Of a stretch of DNA of 64,000 nucleotides, positions 1-64,000 are shown piece after piece. The stretch is taken from contig OY855906.1 of NCBI GenBank assembly GCA_963693305.1, forward strand, positions 3,529,001-3,593,000, read 5' to 3'. The notes under the pieces were generated by a model, which did no database searches, was not told the DNA's origin, and saw only the letters and a list, made by a program, of their open reading frames with translations. Every line of letters starts with the position of its first letter. Within the stretch, counting starts at the first letter, position 1. Position numbers and translations under genes: made by a program. Source of the stretch: Meandrina meandrites. Taxonomy: Eukaryota > Cnidaria > Anthozoa > Scleractinia > Meandrinidae.

Positions 1-139
1 TTTCGCGGGTTTCGATGACTCGCAAGACTGGAAGACTTCGGCAAGACTGGCGTGAGTCCATGGGGGATACGTAGCGTATCCGCTTACACCAGGGGCTTAC
101 ATAATGTTGTAAGATTTCATTTATGGTTCATTTATTAAA

Positions 140-41918: not shown

Positions 41919-44900
41919 ATGAGACTTTACATCCGTAACAAAGAAAAATATGATCCTTTGAAGGCTGGGAAGGCGTTGGTATTCGTGGAATTCCCAGATC
42001 CTCGCGTGTTTTCAGTTGGACAAGTGAAGGAGGTGCGTACTGAACGTAACCTTGAGTTTAGTGTCGTTGCCATACAAAAAGTATTTAAAAAGCTGAGTTA
42101 AATATATGTAAAGAATTTATACAATTTAAATACCCGCTTCCTCGAAAGTTTATAATTATCGTAAACTAATGCAGACTAATGATAAAACTGCCCGTTGAAT
42201 CTACTCTTTCCTCCTGACAGACAAACATGGTGTTTACCTTACAGACGTCGACCCCTTACACTCCTCCTCCCCCGCGTTTTACCTGCATGGCAGGAACTTT
42301 TCTCATGTCTGGCTGTGTCTGGACATGCAGTTTTATACAACTATAAAATTATCAGCTTATAGAGACTCAATCCACTGCTCTGGGCCAGCAATGGACATGA
42401 AATGAATCCTGCGTGATTGTTTCTTATTTCATGTGCCAAGAAAAGACCATTATTTTGTGAAACAACTGGAGCAGTGATAGGCTGTTCCAGGTATTTGTTT
42501 AGTTGGGGAGCAGTGCAAAGACTGGCTGGTGGAAAAAATGGTGACAGAGGTGTCCTCTTCCCACACCACTCCCCTGGGGGAACAGGCTAGAATCACAACT
42601 AACCTTGCATTTTTCGGCAGCCTGACACAATATTACATGTAGGTGGAAATCTGTCTTTGTTTACATGGAAAACCCCTTGGGTGTCCAAGAAAATTTTAGG
42701 AATGATTTTTTGTTCTTTTGTTTTATCGACCCATCTTTTCTCTAACAACATTATTTAGGAGGTCAGTGGTATTTTCAATTTACCTTCCCAAACGAGTTCT
42801 GTTGTGCAACCTTTCATATAAAAACATAGTTTGATTTGCAAGCAGGACTGTGCTCTAAGGGCGCCCGGGTGCCTCAGGTGACTAACTTTTGCCTTTAGGT
42901 GACCAGAAAATCTTATATATAAGCTTTATGCTGGGCACCCTTCATCTCATAGTTTGGACCCTTTGGGCTCCTTATAATTTTTCTTAGAGCACAGCCTTGG
43001 CAAGACAGTAAACATGGAAGTAAAACTCATTTTTACATGAAAGGTTGTGCACCAGAACTCATTTAGAAACAGGGGAAAAAGGCATCTCGGAAATGGACTT
43101 TTGAGTGGCATAAAACCAAAACCAAAGTAATCACTCTGCTCAATCACAAAGGACACAGAAAATCCAGTGATCATAAACCAATCAAAACTTGAAGCAAATA
43201 CATGAAGCCTGCACATGGTATGGGCAAATGTGTGCAAGCCAGTCACAATATTGGTTTTGGTTTTGCATCTGATTGGACAAGAAAGTGGCGTGAATTTTTA
43301 AACCAATCGATTGACTGGGGGGGAGGGGGGGGAGAGACCCTGGGAACGAGGTTGATACTAAGTGAATCTCAATGCCTGCTACATTTGTGTGAACTTGATT
43401 CACAAGTGACTAAGGACTATATGGGGTGAATTGTACACATACATTTATGTCTAAAGATGATACTCTCCCTGATTTTATATGTACGTATTTTAATTGTCAG
43501 GAATTTAAAAAGAAAGCCAGGGCAGCAAAAATTGACTCTTTATATTTTCGACAAGATGATGGCTCTTATGAGGTCTTAGCTGATGATAGGTAAGATTTGT
43601 TTAGAGCTGGCATCACTGAGAATATTTATCTAGCATCTTTACAAATATAGTAGGATTATCACTAAGATTTAGAGTGGATGGTAAAAATACTGTGAAGTAG
43701 GCGGCTGTTGAAGTTGTGGATTGTTACATGTATTGGCTTTAAAGAAAGTAATAAGTAGTGAAGTAGATTATAGTAGGCAGTGAATTTTTCCAGCCACTTG
43801 CTGTTCTAAAAAATCATATGAAGGCAAAAAGATATCTTGTAATGGTTTAAAACCGATTCCAAACATAAGTAATTTTACATTTATCAGTTTGACTTGGGTC
43901 TTTGCAAGGTGCTTAACTGAGTGAATCTGGCAAAATTGAACTTGTGAGTAAGTGTACTCAGCACTGCAAAATTGTAGCACAATATCAGAGTTATCCATGT
44001 AACATTGCCTCAAACCACCAAAACTAACGGTATAATAGTCAGTTTCCTCAACTGTATTTTAAAAACTTATAAATTTACAATATACAACAATAATGCTGTC
44101 GTTGTGTGGAATTATAACAGAACCGTGGGCTTCTACAATATACAAAATGATGCCATTTTGGAAACAACAAGCAACCCTCTGTGGGCTGCTGCCATCTACT
44201 ACAGATTGCGGGAAGTGGAAAGAGATGCCGCCAATCGTGCAGATGATCCAAGGGCTGCTAGAGGATTGGAACAATCACTGATTCAGAAGTACATGGCATT
44301 GGGTATTCTCTTTAATGGAGGAAACAAGTGAGTTATTCAAACCTCTACTTTGGGATACCTCCAATAAAGGGGACAGTCATGTGGTACAATTTTATTCTTG
44401 GTTCAAATTTTATTTTCCTTTGTTTTAAACTCATTATCGTTCATTACCATACACCAAAACAAAGGAAAATAAAATTTGAACCAAGGATAAAATTGAACCA
44501 CAACAGACACACCTATAACCACCAATAAAAATCTGACACCTCCAATTATGGGACACCTTGAAGACTCCACCTTCAGGAAGGATGCACCTTCCATAAGGGT
44601 ATATTTTTCATGAGAACAAACTTTCCTATAGGGTATGCTTTTCATAAAGGCACACTTTTCATAAATCTAAAACACCCCTTCAACCCTCCAAGTTAAGATC
44701 ATTTTAGTCGCCATGGCGTCTAAATTTTGGAGCTGGCGACTGCCTGGCGACTAAAATTGAGAAGAAGGATTGAAAGCGACTAAAAGTTTTCACTGGCGCC
44801 CAAACTTGAGCAGTTGGTGGCCAATGGCCACTAAGGAAAAAAATAAACTTGGAGGGTTGCCCTTCCATACATTTGAGGACACACTTTTCATGAGGTTATT

Positions 44901-47900
44901 CCTCTTATAAGGGTACACTTTTCATAAGGACATACTGGTAGCTTCTTTAAAGGCACACTTTTCATAAAAACACCCCTTACATACATGTAAGGACACACTT
45001 TTCATGCGGTCATACCTCGTGTAATGGCACACTTCTCATAAGGACATACATCCCATAAAGGCGCACTTCTCATTAAGGTCACACCCTCCATAAGTCACAC
45101 TTTCCACAAGGGCGTACATTTCATAAGAGAACACTTCATGAGTGTACATTACTTTTATTAGCAACCTTAGCCATCCCTAACAGATCACATCCTACATGTA
45201 CCTGCAAACCTAAAATATGCTAATTTAAATAAAATAGATTTTGACTAGAAGTGAAGCCTTTTTTGTTTTTTTAGTCGAGAACGACAGCAGCCTCCGTACT
45301 TTGAAGAGTTGGATCAGCTCTTTGAACATCTTCAAACTGCAGGCAAAAAGCCAGTGCATATGTCCCAACAAACCTTGAATACCATGCAGCAGCTGAAAGA
45401 TGATTATGAACAGAATGATGTGCATGAAAGAGATTCCATTGGTCAATTTGTTCGTAGACAGGCTGTGAAATTAGGACTTACTTCAAGTAAGGAGTCACGT
45501 TAAGTCACCAAGTACAGTACACTGAGATTTATCTATCATGTGATAAATATATATTTGACATTGACCTTGTATCCATGATCTCTCTTCTTCACCCCACTAG
45601 GTGGACTGTAGGATTTATTTTGTGTTTTACATCCCTACCAAAACTTAACCCAAACATTAATGTTTAAAGGAAAGAAAATCCTTCTGCTAATAACCCTCAC
45701 CCCCTACCTGAAAAGAAGCCCACCAAACAAGCCTTTTGAACAAATTTGCACCCATTACTACATTAAGAATAAGTACCGGTAGTAAATGCATTGTCATGCA
45801 AATAGTTTGGGTTAAATAAAAAAAAACAAAGCGTTTCGTGGGGACTACTTAAGATCATTTTAGCTTTTAGTTCGTTGATTAATCATTATCCAATTACAAG
45901 AACCCTTTAGTATGAAAAATAATCAGGGCTCAAAATAACGGCCGGTCAACGGACAATGTCCGGCCAAAATGACGATTTGTCCGGACAAAATTTTTGTTTG
46001 GCGGTCATTTTGACTGGTCACGTACATGGCTTTCAAATAAATAACACAAAAAAATTTATTCGCAGTATTTCTTGAAATTTTACAGTAAAATCACAAAATA
46101 TCATAGCAGCGTGCAGTCACAAATTTGTAGAATACAGATGAAACGGTCACGTTCTGCGGATTTGTTAGCGGTTTGCTTAAAATAAAACAGGAAACATCCA
46201 CGTCTGTAAATACACTAAACAGACAACAATGAACATCCCATCAATCAACGTCTGCTATTAACACGAGTACGCAATTACAGTTTGAATTGTCAGGTGGGCC
46301 GAGAAAAATAGCACTCGTTAGTGGATTTAAAAAACTATATGCACCTATAGAAAGTACGAGTTCCTAGCAAGTTTTTCACAAGCAAGATCATGAGAAAATA
46401 ATAAATTCATTAAATGCTTTGAATTTTTTAAGTTCAGTTTCAAGCACATTGTATTTTGAAGTTTTGACAACTTCCTGACCGTATTTGTTGCCTGAAAAAG
46501 CAACAAAGACGTGTTAAACTTCCGGCAAACCCTTACTGAAAGGCCTGATTGCTAAGCATTGTGGACGAATGTGAAATCTTTTCTTGGCGGTTATTTTGAA
46601 ATGGGATATTGGTATCGCATGATACAGGAGAGATATCTAATAGTCGAGGACGTAAATCCTTTTTACTGGACACAGTTGACATGAAGCCGTTGTTGTTTCC
46701 TTTCTTCCTACATGCCGAGCAAAGGCACAGTTATCTCACTTGTAGCATGGGCATATGTCCAATTACTATTTAGTGTTCGATAGTAAAGACCAGTAAAGTG
46801 CTTACAACCAAGATCGCCTCCACCCGTAAGTCATTAACTAATGTAAAACTATGCAGAGTATCAGAGTAACATAACATTACGGCTACTGAGCATTTTGTTT
46901 TATGTAGAGTACAACGCAGAAGAAATGGAAATTCAAAAAGCGAACATAATAAAATGACACTTTTAGCGATCAAAACATTTAAGCTTAAGCCTTATACTCT
47001 TAAACAACGAGTGTTTTAGCTTATGAGGCGAAATTTTTGGTAGAATGGGCTATTGCTTCAAGTAAATACTCAATATTTTGACCGGTCAAAAACGAGACAT
47101 GACCGAGCAAAAATTGATTTGGCCGGTCAACATGACCAGTCAGAATTCCAAAATTATTTTGAGCCCTGATAATAATTAACAATAAAATGATTGTTTATTT
47201 GTTGCAAACAGATGTTTTGCTTATTTCCAATTAGTTAGTCACTTAAAGGGCCACAATGTAAACTACTGGGATGCTGGTAATTGTGTTTAACCCAGTTATT
47301 GTTATTATTCTATTTTATTGCTGATTTTTACATGCTTGTGTATTATTGAACCTTAGCATCTTCATGATCTTATTCAATCGAACAAACACAGTCAATCAAA
47401 TTAAATTGTTTTCATTGATACAAATTTAAAAATATGAATAAAGACTTTTTATTTATTTATTTATTTAAATGTAGAAGAATCAAATGGAAATGGTGAAGAC
47501 CAGCATAATGGAGGCAGGACTGTTGGAGAAGGAGAAGTTGGCAGGTAAGCACAGCCTCACCCAACTGGGCAAAAACTGGTTGGCCTTGCTTTATGATAAA
47601 TGTAGATGTAAATCAAATTTTGACTCTTACTGAAGTCAAAACCAAATATCCATCCATGCTGTGCTTTGAGGTGAAAACTGTTTGATACTTATAAGTCAGG
47701 GTGCAAAGAAAATGTATTTTCCAGGTTTTCCTTCAGGTAAGTTGGAGCCAGTATGTGCTACGTGGAAGGTCTTTCTCAGTTGTCTTCATCTGCCAAGTAA
47801 AAAGCCCAAAAATGTTGCTTGGCCATCAGGCAAGTGATGGGTGAATTCCACTGGCCTGACAGGAAAATCCACTAGTCCTGGGCTATCTAGCCTCATTCTC

Positions 47901-50900
47901 AGATGGTCCAGGGCCCTCACGGCCACGGACAGGATTGCACACTGAATGTAAATAGATCATCAAATATAGAAATGTGCCAAAACCTTTGATCACTGTAAAG
48001 GCATCAGAACCGATTTAATACACCTGGATGTGGGAGCAAAGTGTTTTACCCGAGAACACAACACATTGACCCTGGCCAGGGCTCAAACATGGACTGCCCA
48101 ATCTGGAGTGCATTGCACTAACCCAGGGTTCATACAGGCCATGAAAAACCTTGAAAGTCATGCAATTTTTGAATTTCAATTTTCAGGCCTGGAAAGTCGT
48201 GGAATTTAAGTGTGGGTCATGAAAAGTCATGGAAAATTATGTTCATTAAAAAGTACAAAATAAATAAGTTTTTTTTTTCATGAAGATAATGGTAAAAACA
48301 TACCCAAAATGGAAGATGATTTCCAGGAAAAGGAAGAACTGAATTTAGGAGAACTTGGAGAAGTCATGGAAAAGGTCAGGGAATTTCAAACGCTTAAAAG
48401 AGTATAAACCCTGTAACCAACTGGCTAATCCTATAATAAAGGATAAATTCTGGCTGTGAGGGCCACTAGACATGTGAGAATGAGACTTATATGTACTTTA
48501 TCTTATGATCATGTTTCCATATTAAGACCTCAAGGCAACAGAGGTGGCACAGGTAGAGGAAGAGGTAATAACAGGGGTAAGAGACCCACTGGAGTTGGCA
48601 GAGCTGTTAGGAGAGCACCTCAGAAGCAAAGGATGTGTGAAGACTGCGAGGAGAATGCAGCTACTCAGTTCTGTGCTGATTGCCAGCCACCTTTAGTTCT
48701 TTGCGATAACTGTGCAGTTGTACTTCACAGGGGAGTAACAAGAAGAAATCACCAGTTGAAAGGTGGGATTTCATTAAGATTAAGGCAGGTGCATACTGAG
48801 GTTGTCTTGCACCATGGTCAGAATACTGCTAATCAGGAGACTAAAGCCATTGCATCAGCAACTGCATGTGGTTTGAAGTGGCGAATTTGTATTGTGGCCC
48901 CTTTGAGATAACTATAACTACAGCAGTTTTTTTTGCCTCCAGGACATTATCTTTACCCATGTTAGTTATCAAATCCATATCTTGACAAGCTACATCCACT
49001 GGGTTCAGTTAAATTGCACCCAGTTGACAAAGAAAACAGGAAACAAAATTGTTGTGATTGATTAACCCCACTGTGTGCAATTCTCATAGACTCATTATTA
49101 GACCTGACATGACCTTGGACCTAATTTTGGTCTTTCACTGTTTCATCAGATGTCTCAGAAGCACCTGTACCAGCAAAGGGTTACACCCCTAAGGTAAGTA
49201 ATAAAGGACACAAAGTGTGCAGCACCTATGGGCAATGTTGACATCTGAGTCTGATAAACTGGGAAGTGCATGCAATTGCAACAGTACTTATCTCCAAAAC
49301 AATTCAGTGTTACTTCCAAGGAAGAACACCACCTTGCTTGATTCAACAGATATCTGACCCATTCAATTAATGGTGGACAGTATCTTGCATTCTATAATAT
49401 TTCAGCATGTTTAAAGGCATCTCAAATTTTAGTTTATCGTTACGGGCACACATACCCTCAGACCACACAACGATAAGGTAAATGTAAATTGTGATAAAAA
49501 CCAGAATATCTCCTGGTGTTCACAAAACCCCTGGGGAAATGTAATGTACATTATAAATCAAGTTTCATAGTTCTTTTTTAATTGGAGGGTCCTGCAAATG
49601 TGGCAACTTAAGAAGTGAGACATTTAGTTTGTTTTCATGAGTGTGCAACATGCATCCTGCATACTGCTACTGATGTCAAAGGCATCCTCTGTTGAAATAG
49701 TGGAGTTAACTATTTTAAATAATTATACTTTTTTGGGAATTTTTAAATTGTTCAAGATAGCTCTCACACAGTTATAATTGGCTCTGAGTGCTTTCAACAA
49801 CAGTTCACCAAAGATGGCACTCATTCGTATCATTTTTCATTTTTTAGCTTTACTTTGTGGTAGATGAGAAAACTCCAACAGTGGAGAATAATATGAAGGG
49901 CCGCGAAAGAAAACGTCGCCATCGAATTTTGGCAAAATTGAACATTGTCAAAAACATTCCAAATTTCACATGCAGGTTTGTTTATGTGTGCTTTACACTG
50001 ACCTGTATCTCATTTCGCATGTCTTTGCTTTCCTGTCGATAATTATCGTATGCAGAAATGAAAATAAAGTGCTTGCAGCTTTCATTCTTCACAGTCAGCC
50101 AGTAGTATGAGTTTTTCAACACAATGCGTGGTAATCTTTCTTCGTAGGGTTTTGTAAGTGTAACGGGAAGGCGAAAAGAACTTCAAACTCGCCATTACAC
50201 GAACTTGCGATGCCGCAGCCATGTTTTCATTTTAATTTGCATTGGGGGTGGGGGGGGGGGGGGTTAGAAAGGGACTGGATACCACATTGTGAGGTTGAGC
50301 TGACGTGTGAGAAAAGGAAAAAAGTCGGCGATTTGCTTGTGAAAATAAAATGCTTCGAATGCAGCCGTCTGGTGGTTGAAGGACATCATAAAGTCTGGAT
50401 ACTCGCAAGTCAATAGTATCTCTCGAAGAACTGAGGGTTGTTCTGCGCTTTGTTTGCACAATAGCGTTATTTTAGGCGCTGGAGGTGAAAGTTGTCTGAC
50501 AAAGGCAGGTTGATCCAGGCGGAAAGTCTAAGGCAGGTTTCTTGTCGTGAACTTTGTCAGCACGAGTTTTGCAGTGTTCGCTGGGATGCTTCGGCATCAA
50601 AGTTGCCGATAAGCGACCTGGTTTTAGACTTATAAAAATTGTTGGAGTGTTGCGGGCAGGACCTCTCCTGTCGACAAAAATTCGCAGTACCTCATTAAAT
50701 ATCGATCGATCGATCAATCGATCGATCGATTGATGCAGCGAAAACCAAAAAGTGCGTGAAGTCCTGTCTTGATTTCGCGGGATTTTTTGTAGTGTGTGTG
50801 ATGCGATGATGCAAGGATTGGAGAAGTGAGAGCAAACAGTGCTTTACTGAAAGCAAAACTAAGATGTAGTATGAAAACCAGCGTAATTTAACATTGACAG

Positions 50901-53900
50901 CGACCGCCATGCATGTTTACTTCGCGTTCGTTAAATCGGATCGACGTTAAATCGTGTCGTGTCGTGTCACAAAAGTAGTCGAGTGTTGTGGAGCCAAACA
51001 AGGAAAAAAAAAAAGCTAACTGCAAGCACACCGGATGGAAAGCTAACCGCAAGCAAACCGGAGTGAAAGCTAACCGCAAGCAAACTGCACTCAAGGCGAA
51101 CCGCGGGCCTAGGGTTAAGCGTTTGGTTTATAGCTCAAATGCTAACCCTAATCCCAAATTCTAACCCTAAACTGAAACGCTAACCCTAAACCTTGGAGTT
51201 AGGGTTAGAGTTAAAGTTTAGGCTAGGGCTTAGAGCTTGGGTTAAAACAGTAACTGGTTAACCAGTTAACCTTCGCTGATTTCATTGTTTCAACAAATGA
51301 AAGGCTTCTTTTGTTTATTCCTTATCCAATTAAGACATCGCAAGCAAAAGCCATGGTTTTTTGCATGCGTAATTTATGGAGAAAGAGACCAAAAAACAGC
51401 GGAAGAAATACCGGGCAATGTTTAGCACACGTAAACAAAGCTGCATGCAAAATTTGGAGTTGTTTTGACAATGTTCAATTTTGCCAAAATTCGATAGGGA
51501 CGTTTTCTTTCGCGGCCTTTCATATGATGTAATTGCTTGAAAGGGCTTAACAGTGTGTTTGTACTGGGTTGGTTACCTTTCTCAGCACATTTTAGCTACC
51601 ACTTTTCTTTCAGGCGTACAGAGCACCGTTTGCCATGTTGGTGGCATTCCACAGGTATGTGATTTGTTTCTCTTTGTTTCTGTAACTTTTTCTTTACAAG
51701 ATAGTTTGGTCTCCTTCAGAGTATTTAGTTGTTTGTGCACTTACAGGGCTTCTAATGAAGTTCCCAGTAAAATGAGTTTGACTACAGATGAGCTGAAATC
51801 CAGAGCACAACCTCTCACAAACACAGATTTGGAAATCAAACAAGGTGATGATCTTGTTTTTATCAACTTGTAGAGCTCTTAACGTTAATGGGCCAATCAA
51901 TCTCTGCTTGGAGAAGTGTCTACCTATGGGCAGTGCAGGTTCAACTACCATAAAGTTCTATTTAAAGCCCCTGGGGGTTTATTTCTTTTTAGGACCATTT
52001 GAGTAGGGGGAGGGGAAGTTTAATAAAGAGGGGGGTGGGGCTTATAAGAAACAGGGGGCTTATTTAAAATTGTCTACCAGTTAGTGTACATATAAAAGAA
52101 ATGTGGACTTTTTAATGTTTAGAGGCTGTTTGATAACATGTGTTCACAAAATACCAACAATAATTTGGTGGATGAAAACCTTAAAAAGCCTACATTTCCT
52201 TTTTCATAAAATTAATTGTTATGAGTTTTCATCTAGGGAAGGATAATCTTTTGTGGGGTGGGTGGGGGGAGTGGGGGTGGGGGTGGGGGTGGGGGCTTGA
52301 TAGAACCTTTACAGTATTATTTTGACAATCAAATAACTGGGTAGTGTTTATCTTATATTGAGTTAGGGGTAAAGCACTTATCCTTTAGGTAATAACAATA
52401 ATCACTGTCAATTTCTTCTATGTGCACTAGTATACTAGATTATGCCTTTCCGTGCTGTCCAAATTGAGATGATGTGCTGAAGTGATATACCATATTCAGG
52501 GTCCTGTGCAAAATAATGTACAGAATTTATAAAACAGCCATTGTTTCTTGACATCATGTAATCAGATAAACATGAAGCAAAGAAAAAGAAAATATTTAAC
52601 CCATTCTCCAGCTTCTGTTTATGATCACTGTGAACCTGAGAAGTTCAAGAGTCTGTTTTCATTAAATACAGGTAGATGGTTTGGAGGCTTTGACTCACTG
52701 GAAAATGCTTTGATGAAGAATGACCTTGTACAGAAGGAAGCTAGAACACCAAAGTAAATGACCTTAAATGTATTACAGTCAACTCTCTCTAAGATGGACA
52801 CCATCGGGACTGGCTCCAGCTGTCCATCTTACATAGGTGTGTGTCTTAAAGGGCGTTTAGTTACATGACTGACTGAAAAATGGCAGGAATGGTGAATGTC
52901 TTGTAGAGGTGGCCGTCTTATGGAGGTGTCCATTGAGAGAGAGTTGACTGAATGTGAAAATGCTCTTAACGGCCTTATAATTACTGCTTCTATTACACAT
53001 CTTAATACTCACTCTGTTTGTTTCTTACCAGATGAAATTTTTGGTGTTAGAAAACCAAAAGTATAGTAACTAGCCACTGGTCTTTGAAGCCCAGTAAAAA
53101 ACATTTTTGAATAGTGGGCAAGATGGCAGGATTAGTAGGCAGCAGAGGCCACAAGCTCATTTGGACACCATCTTGTTTGTAGCTGCAAGAGCACTGAGCA
53201 CTGACCATTCACACAACTCATAATGTGGACCCAGTAACCCTGCCGCTCAACATGCAAAGTCTGTTTGTGGGTGGCTCGGTTCACAAGAAACAGTATTTTC
53301 TTTTTGGTTGCGATTTGAACTAGAGGAGACCTATTTGGTATTATTGAAGTTTAGCATAAAGTACGCAGCAAATATCTTGCTGTTGGTTCGGACTTTTGGA
53401 CTGGGCAGGTCTTAAGAGACAATATTCTGTGGTACCCTTTGGTGCCACTGACCAACCCTCTTGCCATAAATATCATTACAGGTACTCTCTCTTGGAAAAA
53501 GGCCAGGCCTTAGCTGCGAGATGCTCAGAATTTGATTATGCCATTCAGAATCTCACTCAGGCAGCTTCAGTTCCAACCATACCAGTCATGGTAGCAAGGT
53601 TTGTGTCATTTCTTAATAATGTCAAGATTTTGTTTTAGTTATTTGTAGGCTTCTTACAGTCTCTTTCGTCTCTTTAGTAACTTTGTTTCACACACTGTGC
53701 AAAGGCTGGAGAATGCTATCCACTGTTTAAATCTCTATCCAGTGGATGAGTGCTGACAAAACAAACTGCACTTTCCAGTGGATACTGAGTTATCCAGTGG
53801 ATAGCATTTCCAACGTTTCGACAACAGGGGCCTTGCCTGTTTTGTTAAAAAAAGTCTTAGGTATACTAATCAGAAAACTAATTCAGTAGCAAAACAACTA

Positions 53901-56900
53901 CCCCTGCACCCTACCTTGGAGACAAATTAATGGGCAATGCGATCATCATTATGTTGCAGGCCAGTGTTCAGAAATCGCCAGGTGTGTTTGTTAGTGGACA
54001 GTGAAGAACCATTGAGGGAGCGTTTTGTTAGAGTGGCACTACAGCGAGGGCTGTCAGCAAAGACAAGGAAGCTTCCTGTGGGGGATTTCCTATGGGTTCT
54101 GCTACCTCCTGGAGTGAATCCTGACACAGTCAGAGATATGCCAGAACAGGAACTGGTACATACAAATGCTTTCTATTAATCCTTCCAAGCATTATGCTGT
54201 AAAATTAATAGACAAACATTCTTATAATACGTAGTGCATGGTTTACAGTGAACACTTTGATTTGTTTTTGACATGTCTGTTGTGAAGATGAAACCACAAG
54301 GAAGACAAACAAACAGTTTCTCTTTGGCAGATAAAACAGTTAAGTCAGCATCAAAAATTGCATGGTAATATCCAAGGTTTTGCGATTGAGACAGACCATT
54401 TGTTCGCTTTCCTTGTAGTCTCATCTTGCATCTGATTGGTGGCTACACAATCGACATGTCATAATATAATAAAATGTTCACTGCTTTATGAGCTTTCACA
54501 GCAATATGGTGGTGGTTCGTCAAGAGAATGTCATTGTCACTTCTGACCTGTCTGCTTGATAGTTTGTTGTGATACAATGATCTGTTATTTGTTAATCACT
54601 CCTAGTCATTAAAGGAACTCAGTGTTACTTACATGTAGTTTAAAATTGTGCGTACCCCATCAGGTTTTATGATGGTGATACTCATGTTTTTCAGGTTCTT
54701 CCTATGATTGTGGAGAGGAAAACATGGGATGACTTGTGGTCCAGTCTTAAGACTACAAGATTTGTGAACCAAGTCCACAGAATGAAGGTAAGCTAACAGA
54801 AAGCTGCATTATGTTACACTGAGACAACTTATGAAGCAATTCTGTCAGACCTGATTAATCTTGTATAAAAATTTTAAACACTTAACAACTACAAGAGAAC
54901 AGTACACCTCTCTTAGAACTATTAATTTGTTAGCAAAACAGTGTTCAGCGTATTGTTTACATTTAGATGTCAGCTGCTTTGTAATGAAACCTCTATATAC
55001 TGAGATTAATGTTATTGTATTGTTAAATGATTGTGTAGGTATAAACTTGAATGGTTTTTCTTTTAGAATTGTGGTTTAGAGAATCTTTTCTACTTGGTGG
55101 AGGGTAGTCCAAAAGAGCTGAAAGGAAAGCCATCGCCTGAGGTGGAGAGTTTCCTGCAGGTACATAGACTTTCAATAAAGTCCTTCGTCTTTGTTATGGC
55201 GTGCCAGGACGAAGGACTTTTCATACTTGATTCGCACCAATTTTAGCGACCCAAAAACGGGTCACTGCGCTTAGACCAATCAGAGCAGCTCCTCAGAACA
55301 GTACTGTCAATCACAAGGAATTAAGCGCAATGAAACATGACTTGCGGTTGAAATCCGACATTTCACATTCAAACATGTCGTTGATTGCGAAAGCGATAAA
55401 AGATGCTTTGAAGGGTTATTCGCTCTTGCGTTACTAGTATGAGAAGAAGACACAAAATGGAAGCTTATCTTTTTCGGGAGAGATGTTTTTGCATCTCCTG
55501 TGTCTGCTCCAACCGGAGCTGGGAAAAGCTTGACTTTTGAGCTACACATTTAACTCACTTCTTGAAGATGAAAGCAACGTAATGGTCTTTGTTGTTCTCC
55601 CGCTCATTTCTCAAATGAAATTAAAGATATGCTCGCTACAAACAACGCTCTCTTGTTGCTGCGAATGTCTTTGCCCAAGTCACGATCAGTGCGTGCTAGA
55701 CTTTTCACAGATGTAATACCTGCTTTCTCTGCTGTGATCGCTTTACTCAGTTGTCGACTCGAAACTTAGCCTCACTTCATGGAGCTTCCGAACTATTGTT
55801 TTATTTCTGTCTGCACAGTTTCGGCACAAGATCTGCAAGATACTTGTCAAATAACCTTCGTCACTGGGCCCGGTCACAGAGGAACTCTTTACCAATTATC
55901 GACACTATTAACTCGAGATTTAAACAAGCTTTGATCTTTTTTCGACCACCCCATGCCGTCAGCTTTCGCTTAAAATCTTTGTTAACGATATCTTTTGCCC
56001 ATTCTTTAGATGAAGGGGAAACGCATACACGTTTGATTGTTTTGGTTGGAGTATAATCGATACATTCTGTGCGCCATTCAAGTCAAAATAAAAAATCTGA
56101 GACACCAGGCAGTGCTCCAAGCTGCGACCATTTTGGTCGCCATGGCGAGTGAAAATAAAATTTGGCGACTAAATTTTCCACACAGGTCGCCAATTTGGCG
56201 ACCAGGGCAGTGCAAAGGGCTGGCTAGGCATCAGAAATGTTTTTTTGCAGTTCAATTACTTTGCCAAACAAATTTGACCGCAAAATGTTCCATTACAACC
56301 ATTTCAATTGCCTATCTTACTTATCTAAATTGTGTTGTTTGATTAAATTTTACTTTTCCATTATTTAACTGAACTGTGCAAGATTTAACATGTTTATCTT
56401 CTTACCTGTTTCTTCAATCTTTTATTTACTTTTCTGCATGATAATTGAGACAGTTCAACAACAAAAACTCTTCAATGCAAGCAAAAATAACTACGTCGAA
56501 CGTTCTTCAGACGATTTTAATGTAGCTCATCATGGTCAGCGGTATTACTTCATGTAAGCTGACATAAGGTGTCCTTTAAAATGCTTTGCTTTTGGCGACC
56601 AAATTTTTCTAGTGGCGACCATTTTACAAAAGGAAGTCGCCAGAAGGCGAGTTCTAAAAAACCTGAGCTTGGAGCACTGCCAGATGAAAGTCATGCTAGA
56701 GGCAAATTCCGCCCCTTGAAAATTGATACTTCTCATTTTTGGCACGAAACAAAAGTGAAGACCCTGCAAGCGAGACAAGTTGACCTCTTGCGACTTTGTC
56801 GCTCGCTAGGCCGCTTCGCGGCTAAAAGCTCGCTTGCTTGGTTATTTAACTCGTGAGGTCGACTTGTAGCAAGTCTAGCAGGTACACAGTGATTATAAAA

Positions 56901-59900
56901 CCTCTCAACGTAATGCAGCATGCATGATTATTTGGAAGAAGACTAAAGAAACTAAAATATACCTTCATTATTTTATAAGAGTGATGCCAATCAAATTCTG
57001 AATATATTTTCCTAAATTGCTTTCTGACAGGTGCTGCACAAGAGCAGTCACCAACTAAACTCTTATTGAAAGAAAGCCCTGCATGTTGCATTCCTTCCAG
57101 GTCATAAGATAACATAGCTACAATGTTATGACAATAGGTAGTTACTACGTTGTAATACTACTTTGTGGTACTGGAAAATGGTGAATGATTTTCAATATCA
57201 TTATCATGCCTTACAGGACAAAATTGACAGCCTGCTTATTGAGGAGCAGTTTCTTGTGAACCGCACTGGATCATGGCTCAAAACTGTGGAATGGCTCTGT
57301 CATTTAACCAACATGGCAATAGAATCTCTGCAGTCAGGTACACAGTATTAGAAAAAGTTCCTTGCATTTTTTGGAAGCTCTTACAGACTTAAGTTATGGA
57401 TTGATATTCCAGTATGATAACTTTGAAACATAACTTGACCAAGTCTTGTCTTGTTGGATGAGGGTTTAGAAGGTACTAACCACCGAGGGATTTGTAACAT
57501 GTATTTTTTACTTTCTGGTGATGAGGCCAACCAGTTTGCAATTCTTTCATTTGGGCCATACATGGAAGAACTGTACTAACCAAAACTTTGCACTTGGTGT
57601 ATGTGTGCTGCTTCTTTATGCCATAAATTGCACTGAATCTTTTTAATTCAACTTCTGGAAGTCTATACAAAATCATAACCTTGAAGCCCTTTGTTGTGAA
57701 CGTCTACACAGAGTCAAAGTCATACTGTTCAGTTTGAAATATGAGTTTTGAAAGTTTCCATTTGGAGATTTGCATTTGGTGTATGTATATTGCTTCTTTA
57801 TGCTATGAATAGTACTGAATTATTTAAATTCAACTTCTTGAAGTCTATGCAAAATCAAAACCTTAAAGCATTTTTCTTTTTGAAAGTCTACACAAAATCA
57901 GAAGGTGTACTGTTCAGTTTGAAATAGAAGTTTATGCTTGTCAATGATGATTCAGCCATTTCATGTGTAGCACAGGGATGCCTAACTGCTTTGCTTTTCC
58001 CTGCGTGAATATTAAATGATGGGTTCATCTTTTACAGAAGGAAGTCCCAGTTTAATGACATACAGTGAATTTTCGAAAGGAGGAAAATTAAACAAGAAAA
58101 ACCTAACCACAATTACTACAGCATCTGCTGTTTCAGGTATGGTTGTAATTATTTAGAGCATGCAAGGGTCTATTTGAAATGTGGTAAGGTTAAATTTAAA
58201 GTAGTGCCTATCACATTTAAATTAGTTCTTGCACTTTGAACAAGCTGATGCTACAATTCACTATCTCAAGGATGTAAATAATAGGCAGAAGGCGGATTTT
58301 CCAGTTGAAAGACCATGTCTGGTTACCTCTTTCTCTTTAACCCAAGTTTTCAATGTACATTTGCTATATCTCATGGGCCTAATGAGATATAGCAAATGTT
58401 CATTCTATAGGATAGTAGTGGAAAGAAGTCATTAAATGCCGTTTTAATTCAACAGCTACCTCCACGGTTTGGTCAGCAACAGAATTTACAGATATTATAC
58501 GCAGGTAACCAGTCTTTGAGTTGTGTTAATGTATACTTCATTGTCATTTCTAAAGATAGTTTTACTACCCCGTTTTCTTAGCTCAGGTTACAATGTCACA
58601 AATTAAAACACTTGAGTAGGTCATTCATGAGAACAGAAGACTTGGTCCAGGGTTTTCAAAAGTAACTGGCGCCCGACGCAAGTCACCGGCTACTTCAAGC
58701 GTTAGTGCCGGGTACTTTTGGAAGTCAAAATTAAAAAAATAATAGTAATAAAAAATTGCGATTCCTATGGGTTAAGTTAAAGATAAAATATTTTGTTCTT
58801 GCCCATTGCTCGCGTTCCAGCATCAGAAATCGTAGCTCTTTTAATCAAAAGCATTCAACGTGGACCGGGAACCATTTCCGTTTTCCCGCGAAAGACTGAC
58901 ATTTGATCCTTTCGTGACTAGTTTCTTCTTGCGTAAGCGAATGTGAATCCGTGAGAGCTTTGTACTTGGTGCTTTCTTTAAGAAAATGGTCCCAGTCACC
59001 GGGTGAAAAGGCAGAAATCACAGCCGCTTTTAACCCAGTTTGGGTTCAAACATCAAAGAAAGGAGATTGCTGGTATGAAACACTTTTTAAAATGCAAATT
59101 GTTTAGTGTTCGCCAGGTTTCTGTTTACAATCCCCCAGTCGATCAGAAAATAAGTTTTGGTGCTTGTTATGAATGAAACATTGCTTGAAAACAATATTGT
59201 ATCGCTTAGGTTGAATTATTTATTGTCAACAAGGCAATTTGTAAGGGATGCTTTTATTTATTCAACGTTTGGTTTCGTGAGGCGCCGTTTCGTGAATGTG
59301 AACAGTGGCAGACTCTAGCGATTAAATAAATTTTATGCTGACACAAATTTGTTCAAATTTAACTTTTGATATAAGCCAAGGCATTTTTAAGATTTTTGTG
59401 AGACTTAAAGTTTAATTTCAAGTCTTCATCATTAGTAAACCGGATGAAACTAAATGTTTTACAGTTCTTTATGGAAAATTAATTTTATACAGAGCCGACA
59501 CAGCCAGACTTGTCGGGACTATGTCGCGCAACATGTTACGGCTTGCTTAACATAAAATTTTTTAACCTTTTGTTTTCGTGGAGTTTTACTGAAATCGTTT
59601 GTTTAGCAGAGCATTGTTACTTTGATAACTAAACAACAGTTAAAACAGTTGTGCCCGCGGAATAAAATTGATTTATCTAATCGATTGAAATTTAGCTAAC
59701 AATGCATTATTTACGGAGCTTGTATGTAGCGCTAAAAAAATAAAATTAAATCTCCGCCTTTTACTCAAATTTTGTATTCGCGAGGTCATTACGTGAGGCC
59801 GAAATAACTATGCTTGGTTTCTTTAACGCGTTGGTCATGAAACTGTTCATCTTTATTTTCAATAAGAAGGAAAACTCTGACTGCAAAAATAAATTTCAAA

Positions 59901-62900
59901 AGTTGATTCATGTTATAACAGGTCAATGAAGTACTGATGAGGGAAAGAGGTCAATTTTTATTCGGATGTAATATGTAACATGGGAAAAGCATTGTAATAT
60001 GTATGAGTAAACATAATTTTCAAAAAAACTCTAGGTTATAATAAAGTGTACAACGACCTAAAAAATAACTTTTTGGTCCTGAAAATGCACCAGAATGCAC
60101 CTCAGAGCATGCAGATTTTCAATTTTTTTCTGGGGGAGGCCCCCCATACCCCCCCTGCAGGAGGGGGAAACCCCCTCCCGCACCCTCCCCATGGGCGGCG
60201 TCGCCGCCCAGCACCGCTAGCGCGGGACATTTCTGCTCCCACTATTTTCCAATTTCCTCCTGATACTTTTTTCCATTTTGAAAACCCTGTTGGTCACCCA
60301 AGGATAAAACTGAAAACCTTTCAGGTAAATCATATACAACAAGTATACCTTGATTTTGATCTTGGGACTTAGTGTTGTGAAAGGTTCTGCACAAAAATTG
60401 TGGAAACACGTGATCCACTTGCCATGTGGAGGACATTATCAAGTTCTTTACTTATCAATAGCTCTCTATATGTCTATATGACTCTGTGTTACTGACAGTA
60501 CTCTATCTACGACTAAGGTCATCAAACAGATTGCGGATGATTTTAGCCATTAGATCTGAGATGTGGTAAGGGACTTGTTTATCTCTGTAATTTTCCAGTA
60601 TTCGTTTTGTTTAGTCATAGCCATGGTGGGATGGAACTGCGCAACCTACCTGTCAGCTTCAAAGAAGAAAGATCTTTGATTGTGATCCAAGGCCTTACTC
60701 TTTATAATAAGGTACGTTGTCTTCCCAACTGTATTGTACATGTATGGTTTGAAAGTCCAATGGCTTGTGGTTGCTTATAGTCTCTGACAGACACCTCCTG
60801 CAAGCAAACACTTATGTAGTTATGGTCCCAGCCATCCCATCTCATATTAAAGTGGAGACCTTTCCTATAAGCAGACACTTGCTCTGGTCCCACATGTTTT
60901 CCTTATGGTAGGTTTGATTGCAGTATTATTACTCACTTACTATACCAGTTCTGCTATTTCACAACTACAGTATTCACTGATAACAACTAATCATTTTGAT
61001 ATTTTTCAGCAATGTCACAAGTTACTGGACAAAGCTCTTGCTGACTTCTTGGAGAACACACATCAAACGGCAGAAGGTAGCTCTTTTCAGAATTTCATAT
61101 CTACTATTTACATGAAGACAATTTGCTGATTTTTCCATTCATGCTACAAAGCATTTATTGAAGGTAAACAGTCCCTGTTAAATTGATCAATGCCGTTTTT
61201 GTGAAGCGGAAAGCCCTTGAATATGGATACACTTTTGACACATTCTAAAAGTTTTGCAAGATACGTTGAGCAGTCTTTAAATTTCATACTGTATCCTCAT
61301 GGCATATTTTCCACATCAAATAGTGTCAAAGGGTTGGTGGCTGCTAGATACCGAGCACCAGCCAAGGGTTAACCTATACAATTCAATCATCTTACCACCA
61401 ATGCACTGAAAATGAAACAGAAACAGTTAAAGATGAAGGCTTCTTTGAAAACTCCCAAGATTCGTATGTGAACTGAATTTGAAGTTGAAAGTTTTACTTA
61501 AAATCCTGTTGAATTGCCAGATTTGTTTTGGAAAACTTGGGGTCTATTTCAAACACTGAACAAAATACAGGGTAAGTGAATTAGCTGTGTCGGAATGTTC
61601 CAACTTAGGATATACTCTGTATCTTCCTATACCCTTTGCTCCTACATGGGGCATTGAAAATCTTCAAGTCTATGTTACTTATTACTATCTTTTGTAAAGC
61701 TTTGGTCATAATGTCACTGCATCTGGTGAATGCTATTTACTGTAATGCATGTGGTGAATGTGTTGCACATTTCAAATGAAGTGTGTCAATGGCATAATAG
61801 TCAACCTGCTAATCACTGCAGAGTGTTGCTGAGATTATGAGATTTATTACTAATTAGTTTTACAATGTTCCACCATTAGCTTGTGTTCAAAGACATCTTC
61901 AGGGTGTCACGGACCAACTGATTCATGAGGATGTGCCACAGTGGTACATTCTCTGGCTACAGGTCAGTGCCCCAGGAACAAACAATTAAATATATGAATA
62001 AATAAAAAAAATAAATACTGGTAAGAAGTTAGGTAGAAAGGTTGGTAGAAACCCTGTAGTGTGCAGTTTTAGTAAATCACAAACTATCTGCTCCAGTAAT
62101 CAGGGAAACTCATGGTTAACACTTTATGTTGGTAAAGCTTACCTGAGTTGATTTCACATACGTAAAAAATTGCATACCTGGTACATCTTGCCACCTATTT
62201 GCACACAGGAAATAGATAGGACTTTTCTGCTTATGAGCAGTCTTCATTTTATCTGGTCTCTAATTCTCGAAGTCAACAATTTTGCTTATCTTTCCTTTTA
62301 GGTTTTTAAAGGAGTGATAGTGCGTAGAACAGACACCGAAGAAGAGTCAGCCGAAATTCTGGGCAGATTCTATCAAACCTCAGCTGGTAATGTATATCTT
62401 CAAGTAACATCCTAAGCAGGGAATAAGTCCCAATGTGATTTTCTTTTTACCATTTAATAATAAATTCAAGTAGGCGGCTCATAATCATGATCGTTTTAGT
62501 GCCAGTCTTGTCTTAAAAGGATAGGAGTTATGTGAATATTATTATTAATATGAATATGAATAATTTTTATTGTTTTGTACATGTCAGGTGGTTTAGATGG
62601 TATTATTCCACATAATGAGGAAGGTGGCCCTAAAGCAGAAAGGTACTTAGGGAATCAACTGCCTTTCTTCGTAACTTTTAGTTCAAGCACTCTGATAATT
62701 ACAAATGCTTGCAATTCCCTGTAATGAGTTCTTTCCAAAAACCTCATATCAGCATACAACCAAGTCAATTATTATTGAAGACAAAAATCCAAGGTGAAAG
62801 CCATTGTTCCCCAATTTAACAACATTATCACTCTAATGTCTAAAATACTCTGATAACAGAGAAATGTTAGAGCTGTGTGTCTGGTAACCTAACAATGCTA

Positions 62901-64000
62901 AGAGGCAAACTTCAATGGTCTAACATCACATTTAACTATACTGAGCCACTGCACGTGTTGGCCCATCTGAAAACCAGCTTTTTCTAAAGGACTGTGCTGT
63001 GTTAATTGTTAGGCTGCCTGAGGATGATCTCATGTTTGCTAGTGATTCTCAAGAGGAAGATGCAATGATCCGTCAGGTTTGATTTGTTTTTTAACAAGGA
63101 ATGCATGCATCATTTGTCAACATTTCCTCCACATTCAGTAGTTGCAAATGTTTGTGTTTGCATATTTCAACGTGTGATTACGTAAATTTATTTTCTTTTC
63201 TTTGTAGGCTCTAAGAGCGTCACAGTATGAAGACAAACTGCCAGAGGTATATATCGTTTATGTAGCTTGATAGTTTACATTTTTTTTGTGTAGGACATTT
63301 GAACAAGACTGGATGTAATTATGTGGACCACAAAAACTACCCAACCAGTGAAATGACAAATTCCTCTATTTTATTTGTAGTAATCGTCTGCCAAGATTGT
63401 TGTCTATCTTCCCATTTTGTTTTTGTACTTCTTTGTTGCAATCTGTGTAAATGTCATCTTGCATTTCCATCTGCATACTCTGAAATAATATTGTTCTCAT
63501 TAATTCTAAGTTGTTTGTCTTTTTTCAATGGAGGATATTGTACACCCATCCTTGGTTAGACCACCAAGCAGCACCACAACAAAACCTGTTGAAGAGCTGA
63601 TATCTAGAAGTTCAGAGAATGGATTGCAGAAATATTCCTTGGATTCCATGAATGAAATGGAACAGCTGGAGCTTGCTATGCAACTCAGCAAAGCAGAAAA
63701 TGAAGGACGTGGAATTCATAGTGGGCACCGTTTAGGTCATGACAAACCCCTTGCAAAAACACCAGTTACATGTTCTGCAACGGAACAACGCAAAGTTAGC
63801 TCACACACTCCTGTTAGGCCAAGAACTAAGATGGAAGTGCGTAAATCAAGACATACAGCTGCTTGTGTTAACAAGACAAAAAGTGATGGCACAAATGATG
63901 AGCTTGAGAACGCCCTGAAACAAAGTTTGAAAGAGTTTGAAAACATGAAGCAAAAAACGGATGACAGAAGTAACATATCTGACACATTCAGTGACCTGGA
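41919..64000 (+). CDS. MUS81-like ERCC4 nuclease with ubiquitin-like, B-box and UIM modules (3'-partial)
   Basis: 25 exons in phase, about 992 codons: 41919-42032, 43501-43589, 44121-44327, 45275-45486, 47475-47544, 48527-48762, 49150-49193, 51614-51654, 51747-51844, 52612-52753, 53482-53598, 53960-54155, 54695-54787, 55067-55159, 57217-57337, 58038-58136, 58456-58504, 60615-60711, 61010-61076, 61880-61962, 62302-62386, 62588-62642, 63013-63076, 63208-63246, 63534-64000+. A ubiquitin-like fold (about 1-85) has FSVGQVKEEF and LADDRTVGFYNIQNDAILE, without a GG end. Then come an RG-rich tract (about 232-262), a B-box (CEDC...CADC...CDNC...H...H, about 266-306), a MUS81 winged helix (GYTPKAYRAPFAMLVAFHR to KYSLLEKGQALAARC, 319-445) and an ERCC4 nuclease (LLVDSEE, LPVGDFLWV, ELVLPMIVERKTWDDL, FYLVEG, LMTYSEF). 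Catalytic GDX(n)ERKX3D is intact. Three UIMs lie near 818, 880 and 962. Neither MUS81 helix-hairpin-helix domain is recognisable. A DNA-structure nuclease tied to ubiquitin signalling is inferred; canonical MUS81 or a paralogue are both possible. Confidence 0.8.
44380..44502. mobile_element. Foldback MITE, nuclease intron 3
   Basis: GGTTCAAATTTTATTTTCCT and its exact inverse AGGAAAATAAAATTTGAACC, extended outward by TGTGGTACAATTTTAT/ATAAAATTGAACCACA, bracket a loop of about 30 bp. Confidence 0.8.
44555..45150. repeat. Degenerate CACTTTTCATAAAGG repeat
   Basis: Variants of CACACTTTTCATAAAGGCA and GGACATAC recur more than fifteen times with irregular period (about 20-30 bp) in nuclease intron 3. 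A MITE copy at 44681-44859 interrupts the array, so the array is older than that insertion. Confidence 0.7.
44681..44859 (-). mobile_element. AACCCTCCAAGTT MITE, copy 4
   Basis: The inverted copy is complete, from CAACCCTCCAAGTTAAGATC to CTTGGAGGGTTG, and inserted in the CATAAAGG array. CCCTT occurs on both flanks and may be the target duplication. The interior has GTCGCCATGGCGTCTAAATT. Confidence 0.8.
45924..47168. mobile_element. 1.25-kb non-autonomous TIR element
   Basis: The ends CAGGGCTCAAAATAA and TTATTTTGAGCCCTG are exact inverses, with inner GGCCGGTCAA/TTGACCGGTC and TTTGACCGGTCAAAA words. Flanks AAAATAAT and ATAATAAT match at 7 of 8, as for an hAT 8-bp duplication. No transposase frame is seen. 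It lies in nuclease intron 4. Confidence 0.75.
48124..48413. mobile_element. CAGGGTT-ended MITE
   Basis: CAGGGTTCATAC on the left pairs with GTATAAACCCTG on the right. The interior repeats AAAGTCATGGAA-type words. It is about 290 bp, non-coding, in nuclease intron 5. Confidence 0.65.
49848..50068 (+). other. Possible alternative terminal exon of the nuclease gene
   Basis: After TTTTTTAG at 49847 the frame that continues phase 0 from exon 7 (ending 49193) stays open for 64 codons (LYFVVDEKTPTVENN..., then a basic GRERKRRHR stretch) to a stop at 50040-50042. AATAAA follows at 50063-50068. Used as a last exon it would give a ubiquitin-like/B-box protein without winged helix or nuclease. An internal GTTTGT could also act as a donor, but it does not keep phase with the normal acceptor of exon 8. 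Confidence 0.45.
50699..50734. repeat. (ATCG)n microsatellite
   Basis: About nine copies of ATCG with two changes (CAATCG, GATTGAT), in nuclease intron 7. It is self-complementary at every unit. Confidence 0.9.
51108..51235. repeat. Telomere-like CTAACCCTAA words
   Basis: Several (C)TAACCCTAA/TTAGGGTTAG words in both orientations within about 130 bp, separated by short non-repeat spacers. This is a decayed interstitial telomeric-type repeat in nuclease intron 7. Confidence 0.6.
52253..52296. repeat. G-rich (GGGGGT)n tract
   Basis: Several adjacent runs of four to six G separated by single T or A, in nuclease intron 9. A strong G-quadruplex candidate on the coding strand. A plain poly-G run also lies at about 50249-50263. 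Confidence 0.85.
52775..52950. mobile_element. MITE with CAGTCAACTCTCTC ends
   Basis: ACAGTCAACTCTCTCTAAG on the left is the near-inverse of ATTGAGAGAGAGTTGACTG on the right. Internal GATGGACACC and GGTGTCCATT extend the pairing. It is about 176 bp, in nuclease intron 10. Confidence 0.75.
53712..53809. mobile_element. Short MITE with ATCCAGTGGAT words
   Basis: AATGCTATCCACTG on the left and CCAGTGGATAGCATT on the right form inverted ends. TATCCAGTGGAT is itself palindromic and occurs three more times inside. It is about 98 bp, in nuclease intron 11. Confidence 0.7.
56108..56681. mobile_element. GCAGTGCTCCAAGC element
   Basis: Exact 16-bp inverted ends GGCAGTGCTCCAAGCT and AGCTTGGAGCACTGCC. 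Near each end lie several GTCGCCA/TGGCGAC words like those in the AACCCTCCAAGTT family. It is about 574 bp, non-coding, in nuclease intron 14. Confidence 0.75.
58358..58398. repeat. Perfect 17-bp-arm hairpin
   Basis: CATTTGCTATATCTCAT and its exact inverse ATGAGATATAGCAAATG flank the loop GGGCCTA, 80 bp upstream of exon 17 of the nuclease gene. Confidence 0.85.
58648..60289. mobile_element. 1.64-kb non-autonomous TIR element
   Basis: CAGGGTTTTCAAAA at the left and TTTTGAAAACCCTG at the right are exact inverses. TTGGTC directly abuts both ends as a 6-bp duplication. No transposase frame is seen. The right part is very rich in C and G (CCCCCTGCAGGAGGGGG). It fills most of nuclease intron 17. 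Confidence 0.8.

Follow-up and report, generated by a model that had tools for sequence, protein, structure and literature searches.

Animal ERCC4 nucleases are described, in the available text of PMC3834828, as needing a partner subunit and a double helix-hairpin-helix domain, (HhH)2: both (HhH)2 domains of MUS81-EME1 make an essential contribution to junction binding, and the non-catalytic partner is needed for junction recognition and cutting. The accessible part of PMC8599992 presents SLX4 as a scaffold whose UBZ4 and SUMO-interacting motif (SIM) readers are coupled to MUS81-type cutting, and that of PMC9032445 places SUMO binding and Rad3-ATR control on the MUS81 partner Eme1 in fission yeast. 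Here we describe a gene of the coral Meandrina meandrites (551-Mb genome) that begins in the window, that is, the 64,000-nucleotide stretch from 3,529,001 to 3,593,000 of contig C4 (OY855906.1). It encodes a MUS81-type nuclease core in one chain with ubiquitin-linked modules, and no (HhH)2 was detected in it. We consider it fairly probable that the product is a nuclease of the MUS81 type whose ERCC4-like partner, itself dead, sits in the same chain, and that the enzyme's own ubiquitin-interacting motifs (UIMs), and perhaps SUMO motifs, direct it to its targets. A conserved member that has no detectable (HhH)2, and perhaps a built-in partner, would test the rule stated above directly.

The original prediction for this stretch, a gene of 25 exons joined in phase, proved firmer than claimed: the sequence itself yields all 25, bordered by AG/GT and joined in one unbroken frame. 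The window ends (position 64000) in the middle of exon 25, which extends to window-equivalent 65527 when the next 10 kb are read. Exons 26 to 30 follow beyond the window, with the stop at window-equivalent 70315 (locus L003). The complete gene has 30 exons over 28.4 kb, with 5,004 coding bases including the stop, and encodes a protein of 1,667 residues. For exon 10, the acceptor before 52672 leads into conserved sequence and keeps the frame; a start at 52612 was rejected because the 20 residues that it adds are found in none of the 10 aligned homologues. The protein comprises, in order, a ubiquitin-like domain, a helical region, an RG-rich linker, a B-box, a MUS81-type winged helix, an ERCC4 nuclease domain, a second domain, nine UIM-like motifs, a SIM-like motif, a CCHC knuckle and a basic tail. 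The predicted part of this order (ubiquitin-like domain, RG tract, B-box, winged helix, ERCC4 and three UIM-like motifs in the window) was recovered, several of the Pfam scores being under cut-off.

The junction between exons 7 and 8 (49193^51614) separates the B-box from the nuclease core. Residues around it align without gaps in other animals, with 18/20 identical in Stylophora, 16/20 in a lancelet and 9/20 in an oyster. A further relative, P0001, has 16 of the 20 identical and two additional residues nearby. The contigs that gave P0001 do not exceed 5,003 bases, much less than the length of the gene here, and we therefore regard P0001 as a spliced transcript; its source tag, 'lgn', is presumably the mark of a read assembly. 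These alignments indicate that, as predicted, we are dealing with a single real gene and not with a chance fusion.

The core of the protein has the marks of MUS81, namely an ERCC4 nuclease with the GD and ERKxxxD motifs and a winged helix upstream of it. By Pfam the winged helix is MUS81-like (E 6.5e-5; 23.7 bits, the cut-off being 27, for the corrected piece scanned alone), and the ERCC4 domain is matched with an E-value of 1.3e-22, in a scan of a draft carrying the 20-residue exon 10 insert. MUS81 proteins are the top matches in Foldseek. The GD and ERKxxxD catalytic residues are invariant in 14/14 aligned relatives; this second structure alignment holds 14 family proteins, P0020 having been dropped from the 15 prepared. 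As far as searched, we reject the idea that the nuclease stems from a virus or a mobile element: phage tblastn gave no match, and a two-pattern scan yielded one viral contig, at 29% identity. The top of a viral fold search is occupied by ERCC4 proteins of the EP364R kind.

After the nuclease, no (HhH)2 was found in the window gene. A human MUS81 C-terminus, used as a tblastn query, aligns there only to the linker (E 1.3), and Pfam detects no HhH family in the full window protein. The same query finds four pieces in the canonical gene of this coral, on contig C7: three of the (HhH)2 and the linker that precedes it. As for an N-terminal HhH, Pfam gave no match in the N-terminal pieces, and a human MUS81 N-terminus was unclear as a query even against the canonical gene. 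Because (HhH)2 is essential for junction binding by MUS81-EME1, according to the part of PMC3834828 available, we regard its absence as the most informative oddity of the gene. It had gone unreported in the original prediction, whose interpretation is partly supported, in its outline of one MUS81-type nuclease gene with ubiquitin-linked modules, which proves to be conserved; the link that it proposed to ubiquitinated chromatin or proliferating-cell factors stands as a hypothesis.

An exon-by-exon search of the genome for ERCC4 gave at least two places, the window gene and contig C7. The gene on C7 is the standard MUS81 whose existence elsewhere in the genome had been suggested as a check: the end of the winged helix, the ERCC4 exons and the three (HhH)2 pieces were found, the N-terminus being unclear. 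Within its span lies a probable mobile-element frame (14832266-14836375, minus strand), which by eye is type B DNA polymerase-like. In a tree of the ERCC4 domain (eight family proteins and the window protein, 163 columns, three outgroup rows, long branches), the family is separated with support 99/98 from four canonical MUS81 proteins, of which one comes from a protist. The split between the family and MUS81 may be older than animals, its date being left wide because of the long branches. On this sequence evidence, the window gene is a second MUS81-type gene, distinct from the MUS81 of the genome.

Homologue searches yielded 25 family proteins, those with named sources coming from Stylophora, lancelets, oysters, mussels, scallops, a clam and abalones. 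The searches rely on shared 5-residue words and may have missed members in vertebrates, arthropods or echinoderms. Another search, with scoring confined to the 7,990 candidates that had the most words in common, contributed nothing beyond P0011, a protist's ordinary MUS81 in a gene model merged with an unrelated gene; it was excluded from family counts and kept in the tree. Of the 25 aligned proteins, 17 have a complete ubiquitin-like domain, 23 a B-box and 23 the CCHC knuckle, the remaining models starting late or lacking the part. The fusion thus recurs in other animals, and, because molluscs and lancelets share it with the corals, this looks like an old animal gene. We found no description of the family in open-licence papers, and it seems to be uncharacterised within the literature searched. 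The fusion, of which the original prediction knew no case among MUS81 proteins, is not absent from databases, where members are filed as 'Crossover junction endonuclease MUS81' (an automatic UniRef label) or 'uncharacterized protein'. Two members, P0020 from a scallop and P0024 from an abalone, are labelled 'platelet binding protein GspB-like' and 'serine-rich adhesin for platelets-like', which match no domain found here. Such misleading names may distort the annotation of invertebrate MUS81.

The second domain has no catalytic motif. The AlphaFold2 model of the relative P0001 is alpha/beta (model pLDDT 86, pTM 0.86; blocks mostly at pLDDT 83-94), with a strand-helix-strand-helices-strand-helix order that is confident over most of its length. 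In a Pfam scan of this domain in 13 family proteins and the window protein, the commonest match is the C-terminal half of ERCC4 (6/14 members, below cut-off). The best such match, in P0001 (E 0.0013, profile positions 81-140), is the top family there, and a scan of full-length P0001 shows two ERCC4 stretches. The second domain is likely, but not proven, to be a degenerate, non-catalytic ERCC4-like half-domain. If it is ERCC4-like, an EME1-like partner is built into the chain in cis.

Several results weigh against this assignment. Eight of the 14 members have no ERCC4 match in the second domain; one member matches the unrelated SepSecS nearly as well (E 0.0026), and the window's own piece reaches ERCC4 only at E 0.19. 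A profile-profile comparison of the second with the first ERCC4 domain by hhalign gave a probability of 0.3%, which is not significant, and the second-domain profile retrieved from the PDB no EME1 and nothing else of relevance. In a structural alignment, EME1 chains matched the first ERCC4 domain; with first domains filling the list, the second was barely probed, and its matches are missing there rather than negative. The hhalign and PDB results, which do not support an ERCC4 identity, speak for an alternative: an active MUS81-type nuclease that still pairs in trans with EME1 (or as a homodimer), its second domain being a DNA- or protein-binding module. This alternative also agrees with the need for a partner in junction recognition and cutting, as described in the available text of PMC3834828. 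We nevertheless hold it to be unlikely, since Pfam ERCC4 is the top match for P0001 and the commonest overall, and since, by eye, the order of secondary structures in the model fits the C-terminal half of ERCC4.

With a dead partner in cis, as we prefer, the protein would resemble the nuclease-like domain of EME1/EME2 in having, next to a catalytic ERCC4 domain, a module that lacks catalysis and may derive from ERCC4. Unlike EME1/EME2, the module is in the same chain, apparently consists of the C-terminal half only, and is accompanied by no (HhH)2 that we could find; we therefore speak of resemblance to EME1, not identity. The 'self-contained' nuclease proposed in the original prediction may have its physical basis in this domain, which had escaped notice. 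Compared with MUS81, the window protein carries in its chain a ubiquitin-like domain, a B-box, a UIM-like array, a CCHC knuckle and the second domain. It shows neither (HhH)2 nor N-terminal HhH in our searches, and stands on the opposite side of the ERCC4 tree.

Targeting would fall to the tail. A pattern of our own making, applied to eight family proteins and the window protein, finds nine UIM-like motifs in the latter, against a mean of 0.06 and a maximum of 1 in shuffled sequences; three lie in the window and six beyond. In the first motif, the D-S-Q, M-I and Q-A-L residues are invariant in an 11-row alignment. The Pfam UIM model scores 14.8 bits in the window protein (cut-off 21) and exceeds its cut-off in P0002, P0003 and P0022 among the eight relatives scanned. 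A difficulty for our reading is that the motifs drop to 3, 4, 2 and 4 in four bivalves, the count of 2 being no more than the shuffled maximum, and to 0 in abalone with the identical pattern. One SIM-like motif, I-L-L-D-S-Q, lies near residue 1310 of the window protein, and hydrophobic-DSQ motifs recur in the tails of 9/11 members (ten family proteins and the window protein) against a shuffled mean of at most 0.05, the pattern having been picked post hoc. By resemblance, the hydrophobic-DSQ motif is possibly a SUMO-interacting motif beside a potential ATM/ATR site; taken as a whole, SQ/TQ sites show no enrichment in this protein (11, against 14.0 after shuffling). SIM-like motifs that end in DSQ invite comparison with the SUMO binding and checkpoint control of fission yeast Eme1, which is another protein in another kingdom. 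SLX4 is a scaffold acting in trans, whereas the readers here would be putative UIM and SIM-like motifs within the enzyme; none of the SLX4 domains UBZ4, BTB and SAP/CCD appears in the full-protein Pfam scan at E up to 5. The CCHC knuckle, of the zf-CCHC_6 kind, passes its Pfam cut-off (23.6 bits vs 22).

At the other end of the protein, Pfam ubiquitin is matched in 9/11 family members (best E 5.1e-4, below cut-off), and the family profile of the domain, compared with the PDB, retrieves single ubiquitin, at E 0.003 at best. Two observations tell against this part of our reading: the window's own piece is barely recognised (E 0.22; no Pfam ubiquitin match in a longer piece), and AlphaFold2 modelled the N-terminal 767 residues of P0001 poorly from six sequences (pLDDT 46.7). 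The helical region has 13 invariant columns across 7 aligned sequences, window included, and no convincing match in Pfam or the PDB. The RG tract is present and poorly conserved, being a variable linker among relatives. For the B-box, the Pfam zf-B_box match (E 1.4e-4) has 22.4 bits against a cut-off of 24.1, and all eight Cys/His zinc ligands are invariant in 7/7 aligned sequences, window included; its profile finds just weak ribosomal S14 and ZZ-finger matches in the PDB.

In the mechanism that we propose, the winged helix and ERCC4 domain would bind and cut branched DNA in the manner of MUS81. The non-catalytic ERCC4-like second domain would, in the same chain, replace or supplement the (HhH)2 of MUS81 and the EME1 that MUS81 needs as a separate subunit. 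Recruitment to sites marked with ubiquitin and SUMO would be the task of the UIM and SIM-like motifs of the tail, and the B-box and ubiquitin-like domain may tie the enzyme to ubiquitin enzymes or the proteasome. One chain could thereby do what SLX4, with its UBZ and SIM, does in trans for MUS81-EME1, perhaps in fork or crosslink repair. A bolder version, which we put forward tentatively, is that of a single-chain MUS81/EME1-like nuclease. Its catalytic and dead ERCC4 modules would pair in one polypeptide without (HhH)2 and also read ubiquitin and SUMO marks, joining roles that vertebrates spread over SLX4, MUS81 and EME1, and it would have been kept in cnidarians, molluscs and lancelets beside the ordinary MUS81. 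Such a natural design would unite ubiquitin signalling and junction cutting in one chain, two functions that are difficult to disentangle in systems in which SLX4 brings several nucleases together.

Innate signalling makes common use of ubiquitin-like, B-box and UIM modules, and the coexisting ordinary MUS81 could cover repair. Both points would suit an immune or genome-defence nuclease that ubiquitin signalling steers to foreign or mobile DNA, like the TRIM-type B-box sensors. We judge this improbable: a Pfam scan of the whole protein, read up to E 5, finds no RING family, unlike the RING-B-box-coiled coil order of TRIM proteins, and the retained MUS81-type winged helix and catalytic core suit branched-DNA substrates. 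A pseudo-enzyme scaffold, that is, a ubiquitin reader binding branched DNA without cutting it, might be suspected from the missing (HhH)2, essential to junction binding by MUS81-EME1 in the text available from PMC3834828, and is very improbable given catalytic residues invariant in all 14 aligned relatives. That exons 1-7 and 8-30 are two genes misread as one, as the long intron 7 (2.4 kb) and the inverted-repeat element within it might suggest, is rejected as hardly credible and nearly refuted already, the lancelet, oyster, mussel and Stylophora proteins being unbroken across the junction and P0001 coming from such short contigs.

The element in intron 7 has 124-base inverted arms (49888-50011 and 51405-51528, 86% complementary, 1.4 kb apart) and is short DNA transposon-like; the intron is long at least in part because of it.

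Table 1. Features of the nuclease gene, in window positions
Feature	Position	Strand	Basis or remark
Ubiquitin-like domain	41919..44178: exons 1, 2 and start of 3 (41919-42032, 43501-43589, 44121-about 44178)	+	Pfam ubiquitin in family; PDB ubiquitin by family profile
Helical region, conserved	44179..45486: exons 3-4 (to 44327, 45275-45486)	+	Invariant columns in alignment
RG/GN-rich linker	47475..48629: exon 5 (47475-47544), start of exon 6 (from 48527)	+	Sequence
B-box type zinc finger	48630..49160: exon 6 (to 48762), end spliced to exon 7 (49150-49193)	+	Pfam zf-B_box; zinc ligands
MUS81-type winged helix	51614..53598: exons 8-11 (51614-51654, 51747-51844, 52672-52753, 53482-53598)	+	
ERCC4 nuclease domain	53960..57337: exons 12-15; GD motif in exon 12, ERK motif in exon 13 (54695-54787)	+	
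Linker like the MUS81 'TFSDFN' segment, which leads into (HhH)2 in MUS81	58038..58136: exon 16	+	tblastn E 1.3
Second domain, perhaps ERCC4-like, without catalytic motif	58456..62386: exons 17-21 (58456-58504, 60615-60711, 61010-61076, 61880-61962, 62302-62386)	+	AlphaFold2 of P0001; Pfam ERCC4
Variable linker	62588..62642: exon 22	+	
UIM-like motif 1, best conserved	63013..63246: exons 23-24	+	11-row alignment
UIM-like motifs 2 and 3	63534..64000: start of exon 25	+	Up to window-equivalent 65527, the exon adds another six UIM-like motifs and the SIM-like I-L-L-D-S-Q motif
CCHC knuckle and basic tail	Exons 26-30, outside window, end 70315 (L003)	+	

About 400 bases upstream of the nuclease gene starts a divergent gene (window about 40700-41515, minus strand) that by eye is MPC2-like; its joined two-exon piece matches Pfam MPC at E 3.5e-4, below cut-off. 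The mitochondrial pyruvate carrier-like neighbour and the nuclease gene may share a divergent promoter. Directly downstream of the nuclease gene lies a long open frame, probably of a mobile element (L003 8579-10000), with no useful match in Pfam. Farther upstream, on the minus strand, the window holds an RCC1-like repeat frame (4227-4952) and a nearby glutamate-rich frame (1433-2020), perhaps, by eye, parts of an RPGR-type gene.
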